The notes under the pieces were generated by a model, which was not told the origin of the DNA, made no database searches, and saw only the letters and a program-made list of their open reading frames with translations. Of a stretch of 49,219 bases of DNA, positions 45,994-47,443 are shown in pieces. Position numbers and translations under genes: made by a program. The DNA comes from Opitutales bacterium. GTDB lineage: Bacteria > Verrucomicrobiota > Verrucomicrobiia > Opitutales > UBA953. Position 1 is the stretch's first letter. Each line of letters begins with the position of its first letter. Location: contig SIAU01000006.1 of the NCBI GenBank assembly GCA_009691685.1, positions 1 through 49,219 on the forward strand, in the 5' to 3' direction.

Positions 45994-46398
45994 ATGAATT
46001 TTGAAGAAGCCATTAAACTCTGTCACGAAAAGGACCCGCGTTACAGTCCGCAGTCTTATCACCTCGTACGCATGGCCTTAGATGCCGCACAAAAACAAGT
46101 TCACGGCGAAGAAAAGAAGGGAAGTAAGAAAACGAATCGTCACGTCACAGGCAAAGAGCTCTTAGAAGGTTTTCGCCAACACACCTTAGAGACGTACGGA
46201 CCGCTCTCCTTTGCTTTGTTGAATAACTGGGGCATCAAGAAAAGTGTCGATGTGGGTAATATCGTCTTTAATATCATAGACACTAAGCTTTTTGGACGTT
46301 CGGCCGAAGATCAAATCGAAGACTTCGTTAATATTTACGACTTCAAAGAGGCGTTTCTAAAACCGTTTGAGCCTAAAGAAAAGTATCCTAAGCCGTAA
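45994..46398 (+). CDS. Minf_1886 family protein (Verrucomicrobia/Planctomycetes-restricted)
   Basis: A 134-residue soluble protein. The start NFEEAIKLCHEKDPRYSPQS followed by YHLVRMALDAAQKQV matches the family known from Methylacidiphilum and planctomycetes, where members begin with an F-x-x-A ... DPRY motif. The remainder includes GKELLEGFRQHTLETYGPLS and GNIVFNIIDTKLFGRSAEDQ. No function is known. It starts 1 base after hisC and its 3' end overlaps the HAD-DUF721 gene by 11 bases. The family recognition is from memory and is the strongest lineage clue in the window. Confidence 0.82.
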   Translation: MNFEEAIKLCHEKDPRYSPQSYHLVRMALDAAQKQVHGEEKKGSKKTNRHVTGKELLEGFRQHTLETYGPLSFALLNNWGIKKSVDVGNIVFNIIDTKLFGRSAEDQIEDFVNIYDFKEAFLKPFEPKEKYPKP

Positions 46399-47443
46399 CC
46401 CAGGAAATCGCTTTAACCTGGCGACAACCAGGAAGCTCACGGATTTTCAGCAATAAACTTTTCTCAAAGAATCGTGCTTCCGATTTAATCACTGCGCTTT
46501 CGCACTGAATAATCAGTCGACCGTCTTCGATGACTCTCAAGGGCGCGCAACGTCGAGCCAACTTCAGAGGTAATAACTTATTCCATGAGGCCACAATCGC
46601 ATCCTCGGGTACAGGTTTGTCGAGTCGCAGCTTTCGGAAAGCCTGCGTGACCGCATCATCGATGGATACACTCTGACGAAAAGTGGACCGACCCTTGTCT
46701 TCGGGTAGGCCGCGTAAGTTCGCCAGCAGATTAATTACATTTCTCGAAAAGCGTCCTTTCTTTTTACCCTCGGTTAAAACGGCCCTGACAACATAGGGAA
46801 TCTCTTCGAGTTTTTCGGCACGTAGGCAATTTTCAGGGGCATGACGACCACCCACGATGATACCTAGAACACCCGCATCGCGTGCTCCGATACCATCTTC
46901 ATCTGGATTGTCACCGATATGCGCGAGTTGGTTAACGGGGATTTGTAGAGTGCGGGACACATGCTGAAAAGCCCGCGCGTCTGGTTTTCGATAGCCAATT
47001 TCATCGGCTAAAAATACTTTATCGATAAATTTGAGCAGCTCGAGTTCTCGTAAGACCCCATGGATCCTGGCATCAGTATTCGAAAGTACACATACCTTTA
47101 ATCCGAGAAAGCGAAGCGCGGTGAGCGAGCTAATGGATCCCGGAGTGAGTTTCCAAGACTTGGCTGAGGCAAAAGCCGTCCAACATTTTTCAGCGACTTC
47201 ATCTCTTTTTTCATAGGGCAGATCATCACCAAGGGATCGGACTACGACTTCTTTCCAAAACGCTTCGGGCTTTAATTTCGATGAAACACTTTTAAAGGCT
47301 GCCGGAAATTGTTCGTTAATTAATTTAGCTGGAATAGTTACTCCGCATTTCTCAGCGGCGTCAGCGTAGACCGCACCAACCGAAGGGTAGGGTGTCAGTA
47401 AGGTTCCGACTAAATCTAAGGTGATGGCTTTTAGGGCACGCAT
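46388..47443 (-). CDS. HAD phosphatase fused to a DUF721/DciA-like domain
   Basis: A 351-residue two-domain protein. Residues 1-225 are a HAD hydrolase: LDLVGTLLTPYP (nucleophile Asp10), VLSNTDA (Ser121), YRKPDARAF (Lys153), and HIGDNPDEDGIGA (Asp178). The usual second Asp at position 12 is Val. Residues 260-350 look like DUF721/DciA, the DnaA/DnaB-interacting domain: AFRKLRLDKPVPEDAIVASW, NKLLPLKLARRCAPLRVIED, then LIIQCESAVIKSEARFF and LREL-like end. I know of no textbook example of this fusion. A TATAAA-like box lies upstream at 47462-47467. No frameshift is visible between the domains. Confidence 0.65.
   Translation of the reverse strand: MRALKAITLDLVGTLLTPYPSVGAVYADAAEKCGVTIPAKLINEQFPAAFKSVSSKLKPEAFWKEVVVRSLGDDLPYEKRDEVAEKCWTAFASAKSWKLTPGSISSLTALRFLGLKVCVLSNTDARIHGVLRELELLKFIDKVFLADEIGYRKPDARAFQHVSRTLQIPVNQLAHIGDNPDEDGIGARDAGVLGIIVGGRHAPENCLRAEKLEEIPYVVRAVLTEGKKKGRFSRNVINLLANLRGLPEDKGRSTFRQSVSIDDAVTQAFRKLRLDKPVPEDAIVASWNKLLPLKLARRCAPLRVIEDGRLIIQCESAVIKSEARFFEKSLLLKIRELPGCRQVKAISWVTA

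Follow-up and report, generated by a model that had tools for sequence, protein, structure and literature searches.

A predicted DciA helicase loader fused to a HAD-IA hydrolase in a family of Opitutales

Analysis of the window, the whole stretch of 49,219 nucleotides from an Opitutales bacterium, revealed a gene whose single product combines an N-terminal HAD-IA hydrolase half with a complete DciA protein (Table 1). We propose, with a probability of roughly 0.55, that this product is an ordinary DciA loader, the sole detectable one of its bacterium, that it received its HAD half by a single fusion, and that the two halves function independently. The loading activity, a slow hydrolysis by the HAD half, and the independence of the halves are the parts of this reading that we infer.

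Table 1. Features of the fusion gene and related loci
Feature	Position	Strand	Comment
Whole fusion gene	46388-47443	-	351 aa and stop; joined frame found in every genus sampled from the family
HAD-IA hydrolase half, residues 1-226	46766-47443	-	DREG-2/HDHD3-like, with alpha-helical cap; PF00702, TIGR02252, HDHD3 3k1z
Motif I, D10-L-V12-G-T	47402-47416	-	Nucleophile kept; Val replaces second Asp
Motif II, S121-N122	47078-47083	-	Alignment
Motif III, Lys153	46985-46987	-	Invariant in A2
Motif IV, G177-D178 ... D183	46895-46915	-	Alignment
DciA N-terminal extension, residues 227-260 (FSRNVINLLANLRGLPEDKGRS), junction between the halves	46664-46765	-	Same motif starts free Opitutales DciA
DUF721/DciA KH-like domain, residues 261-346	46406-46663	-	PF05258; model matches 8a3v and 7ykm
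Trp287, conserved Trp of the DciA domain	46583-46585	-	63/63 fused proteins; aligns with the 7ykm Trp
Cap-less HAD remnants fused to DciA	L185 (G263) 1495-2523; L262 (G232) 1498-2409
HAD-dciA pair genomes (families separated by semicolons)			G040; G043, G068, G100, G113; G050; G053; G055, G075, G090, G164, G173; G140, G153, G192
Genomes of family f35 without a DciA match			G310, G318, G326, G342, G348, G353, G357, G362, G367, G381

As originally predicted, the HAD and DciA parts lie in one frame: it starts with ATG, comprises 351 codons without interruption, and encodes both domains at scores above their Pfam cut-offs. That an assembly or frameshift artefact fused two separate genes is extremely improbable. 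The majority of the clade's genomes are metagenome-assembled, and nothing else speaks for such an artefact, whereas the 63 distinct fused proteins come from independent assemblies and share a conserved junction and, in genus g1, a length of 350 or 351 aa. The joined frame was also found in a 96%-identical relative (L056) and in a 99%-complete genome of 8 contigs (G057). Since it recurs in independent genomes from each of the five genera sampled, assembly error, which the original prediction had named as a possible source of the joined frame, is excluded. In close pairs, dN/dS stays below 0.3 for the HAD half; for the KH part, most values are below 0.05 and a few are 0.2-0.4. Purifying selection acts on both halves.

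In the surrounding gene order, the fusion gene is flanked on one side by hisF, a CNNM-type transporter, nadB, a ketopantoate reductase-like gene and a lipoprotein gene, and on the other by a small protein gene, hisC, a sugar-nucleotide reductase-like gene, a lipoate ligase-like gene and mutS, all names being read from the sequences. The order is much alike in five relatives (L056, L058, L075, L082, and L090). A convergent gene for a 134-aa protein (45994-46398, plus strand) overlaps the fusion gene tail to tail by 11 nt (46388-46398), and this adjacency is kept in relatives.

The assignment of the C-terminal part to DUF721/DciA agrees with three types of comparison: (i) residues 261-346 match PF05258 at 44.2 bits against a Pfam cut-off of 24, and at 47 bits in the genome scan, (ii) a profile of 67 DciA domains, headed by that of the window, retrieved from PDB the DciA domain of Deinococcus radiodurans (7ykm, E 1.2e-10) and next the Vibrio cholerae DciA (8a3v, E 0.36), and (iii) the predicted fold resembles both solved DciA structures. 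HAD structures dominated the fold search with the full-length protein, so the DciA tail was folded separately. The AlphaFold model of residues 228-351 matched 8a3v with Z 12.0 (rmsd 1.7, 74 aligned residues) and 7ykm with Z 10.5 (rmsd 2.2, 76 aligned residues), and the third-best match was the SirA-DnaA domain I complex (Z 8.9). Thus, both the proposed identity of the tail and its expected structural likeness to DciA are supported.

The FSRNVINLLANLRGLPEDKGRS stretch opens free DciA proteins of other Opitutales (L017, L021, L145, and L149), and the amino acids of residues 227-260 are almost unchanged across close relatives. This stretch between the HAD and KH domains is part of DciA, more than a linker. 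Because the domain, the fold, the conserved Trp and the extension opening free DciAs are all present, residues 227-351 make up a whole DciA.

The genome that contains the window (1.33 Mb, 88% complete) encodes DnaA and one DnaB (contig C55), and the only DciA match above the cut-off in its scan is the fusion gene; no separate dciA, the presence of which had been raised as a question in the original prediction, was found in this 88%-complete genome. A second candidate (14.7 bits, on C32) was rejected, since the 398-aa frame around it reads as LpxB. In a PF01695 scan of the same 88%-complete genome for dnaC or dnaI, the sole match above the cut-off was DnaA, and the rest scored below it. Nearly complete relatives of this genome likewise have the fused dciA and no other. 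The fusion protein is, within the 88% of the genome that is available, the only detectable DciA loader of the bacterium, and the suggested role in helicase loading is retained by homology of its tail to DciA. Studied DciA proteins contact the LH-DH module of DnaB (PMC9912922), and in Caulobacter topological loading involves the binding of ssDNA by both the DUF721 domain and the N-terminal extension (PMC12547741). By homology, residues 227-351 would bind DnaB, bind ssDNA through the extension and the KH domain, and bring the helicase onto DNA.

The N-terminal half matches PF00702 at residues 5-191 (72.2 bits, Pfam cut-off 26.4), and D10, S121-N122, K153, D178 and D183 are all there. The best NCBIfam match is the DREG-2 family TIGR02252 (residues 5-195, 138.2 bits), and the closest solved structure is human HDHD3 (3k1z), in agreement with the predicted DREG-2/HDHD3-like class. 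The TIGR02252 score is below the curated cut-off of 155.2, a value exceeded by a free HAD relative (L171, 157.9 bits); DREG-2 may thus be named as the best-matching family, and membership is not claimed.

Motif I has the nucleophile and the Val at position 12 that were noted originally. The nucleophile D10 is found in 58/58 fused proteins that cover this site in the alignment, and position 12 is occupied by A, T, V, F or S. The nucleophile, motif II, the motif III Lys, motif IV and the cap are retained by most fused proteins; three of them (L025, L080, and L082) have Asn instead of Asp178 in motif IV. The second motif-I Asp of a typical phosphatase is never present in this HAD group. Since this general acid/base residue is replaced (by Val12 in the window), we term the domain a HAD hydrolase and not a typical phosphatase. 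In HAD enzymes, absence of the second motif-I Asp predicts slow or unusual turnover. Position 12 is A, G, T, F or V in the free HAD relatives, and human HDHD3 (motif I DVKDT) likewise lacks the second Asp. Because the free HADs of the same group also lack it, its loss predates the fusion and is ancestral to the group, and therefore gives no sign of a new role. A literature search for the function of HDHD3/DREG-2 yielded expression and proteomics papers and no substrate.

The same fusion is found in relatives, as the original prediction had proposed to examine in other Verrucomicrobiota. It is present in each of the five genera sampled from the window's family: in the window's own genus it has 350 or 351 aa in members with an uncut dciA contig, and it also occurs in the genera g22-g25. 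Among 387 genomes across the phylum, the single HAD-DciA frame is confined to this family; free DciA proteins of other Opitutales families have about 120-140 aa. The named relatives are Opitutales/Opitutia metagenome-assembled genomes (MAGs), e.g. UBA953, UBA957, UBA7397, BS8, and BS10. UBA953 is an Opitutales family and genus among Lake Erie MAGs (PMC12697132), and the names and sample labels of the relatives suggest that the window's family is UBA953, of freshwater.

Several other observations were made in the course of the genome comparison. Long DciA frames elsewhere in the order or class (692 aa in G319, 552 aa in G396, 394 aa in G092, and others) are probably read-through in GC-rich DNA, because they contain no second Pfam domain above the cut-off. 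The BS8-named assembly has two distinct fused copies (L067 and L070, 54% and 58% identical to that of the window), possibly due to a mixed assembly and not to duplication. The 10 nearly complete genomes of family f35, from the same class, gave no DciA match at E 0.001; this family has a DciA that has diverged strongly, or else a helicase loader of another kind.

The same HAD was detected in 109 of 273 Opitutales genomes, orthologs (at least 193 bits) being separated from paralogs (at most 83 bits) by score. In at least 15 genomes from six other Opitutales families, it is located immediately upstream of a free dciA, in the same orientation (Table 1). The HAD stop and the dciA start share 4 nt, ATGA or GTGA, in three families (G040, G164, and G153), and gaps of 18 nt and 14 nt separate the genes in G050 and G053, respectively; in a seventh family the distance is 1.3 kb (G064). 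The HAD is located away from dciA in families f2 and f14 and in parts of f20 and f21. At about 50 loci outside Opitutales, no HAD was found near dciA. In one Opitutales pair from another family (G090:C34:185443-186525), HAD and dciA share one frame with a lone TAA between them, one codon short of a fusion. The HAD matches in family f2 contain one TGA each in G081, G166, G249, G253, G264, G267, and G283, reflecting recoding, a shift of frame, or a match that overruns the true stop codon.

In the HAD tree, the 16 fused rows form one clade among the free HADs (support 93/83, 96% of bootstrap trees), which shows a single origin of the fused clade. Since the fused HADs are monophyletic and the HAD lies upstream of free dciA elsewhere, the most parsimonious history is that a coupled HAD-dciA pair fused once, at the root of the family, and that the fusion was kept family-wide thereafter. 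The ancestral pair would have comprised a DREG-2-like HAD gene ending at or just before the dciA start.

In another reading, the fusion is regulatory: the HAD would sense or hydrolyse a phosphorylated metabolite, or hold a long-lived phospho-aspartate, and thereby switch DciA-dependent helicase loading on or off. Seven families have the HAD gene in the company of dciA and one has it fused, the active-site residues are conserved in most members, and the HAD is joined beside an extension that binds ssDNA in Caulobacter (PMC12547741); the Asp loss could, by general HAD chemistry, prolong the phospho-enzyme state. On the other hand, that loss is older than the fusion, 164 of the 273 Opitutales genomes lack this HAD, and two species have dispensed with its catalytic residues and cap while keeping DciA. 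We therefore consider a regulatory fusion unlikely. Slightly more doubtful is a HAD that serves as a built-in regulator, setting DnaB loading via the adjoining ssDNA-binding extension and acting as a pseudoenzyme regulator in one genus. The HAD half directly precedes the extension, and thus interference or regulation is sterically possible.

The two species in question (G263 and G232, both MAGs) belong to genus g25. Their fused HADs have Arg or Asn in place of the nucleophile and lack the cap as well as the SN of motif II, the Lys of motif III and Asp178 of motif IV; DciA is still joined to the remnant, and no intact HAD copy was found elsewhere in the two genomes. In this genus, the HAD has decayed to a non-catalytic remnant with the attachment kept. 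Because a dead, cap-less remnant is retained together with DciA, HAD catalysis is dispensable for DciA function in these species. The originally suggested link, through the HAD, between helicase loading and a phosphate-dependent signal was accordingly not upheld, given the ancestral Asp loss and the fused DciA kept here without catalysis.

Between the two species, identity is 52% for the HAD remnant and 44% for the KH domain, with pN of 0.37 for both and pS of 0.53 and 0.58, respectively. The remnant is conserved as much as the KH domain, and this leaves room for a structural role. The HAD fold might be a scaffold, i.e. an N-terminal domain for oligomerisation, partner binding or shielding of the ssDNA-binding extension, with catalysis incidental. 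Retention of the conserved remnant agrees with such a role, but nearly all other members keep catalytic residues that a mere scaffold does not need, and we consider it improbable. The attachment and conservation of the HAD over deep divergence, the dead remnant included, hint at some role of the attachment.

Our preferred reading remains that of independent halves, because G263 and G232 keep DciA without catalysis and the HAD is located away from dciA in several families. Most likely, the HAD half would be a slow hydrolase acting independently on a small phosphorylated compound; it would be expressed together with DciA without being an essential loading switch.

The ancestral helicase loader of bacteria, DciA, has been studied in Pseudomonas, Caulobacter, Vibrio, mycobacteria and Deinococcus; to our knowledge, little is known of the control of its activity. 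Here, a whole family has its only detectable loader joined to a hydrolase of metabolic type. Together with the two-gene relatives and the natural dead derivative, it forms a comparative series on two questions: whether the start of replication is tied to metabolism, or whether genes that adjoin in an operon can fuse and yet stay functionally uncoupled.

Both domains are known. The DciA papers searched (open-licence PMC text) yielded no description of the architecture, of its fixation throughout the family or of its descent from a gene pair; a search of the same text for a HAD-DciA fusion also found none. The window's protein resembles known DciA (PF05258/DUF721) in domain sequence and fold, the conserved Trp, the N-terminal extension and its position as sole detected loader beside DnaA and DnaB. 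DciA proteins occasionally have a zinc finger (PMC5109545) and in the searched literature no enzyme domain, whereas the DciA described here follows a complete HAD hydrolase of about 226 aa. With DREG-2/HDHD3 (TIGR02252; 3k1z), the best family and structure match, the HAD half shares a cap with an FW pair and a motif I without the second Asp; it differs in scoring below the curated cut-off and in being joined to a replication protein. The closest counterparts in gene content are the Opitutales HAD-dciA pairs (G040, G164, G153, G050, G053, and others), with an orthologous HAD and DciA in the same order and on the same strand, but as two genes that range from a 4-nt overlap to about 300 nt apart, in contrast to the one frame described here.
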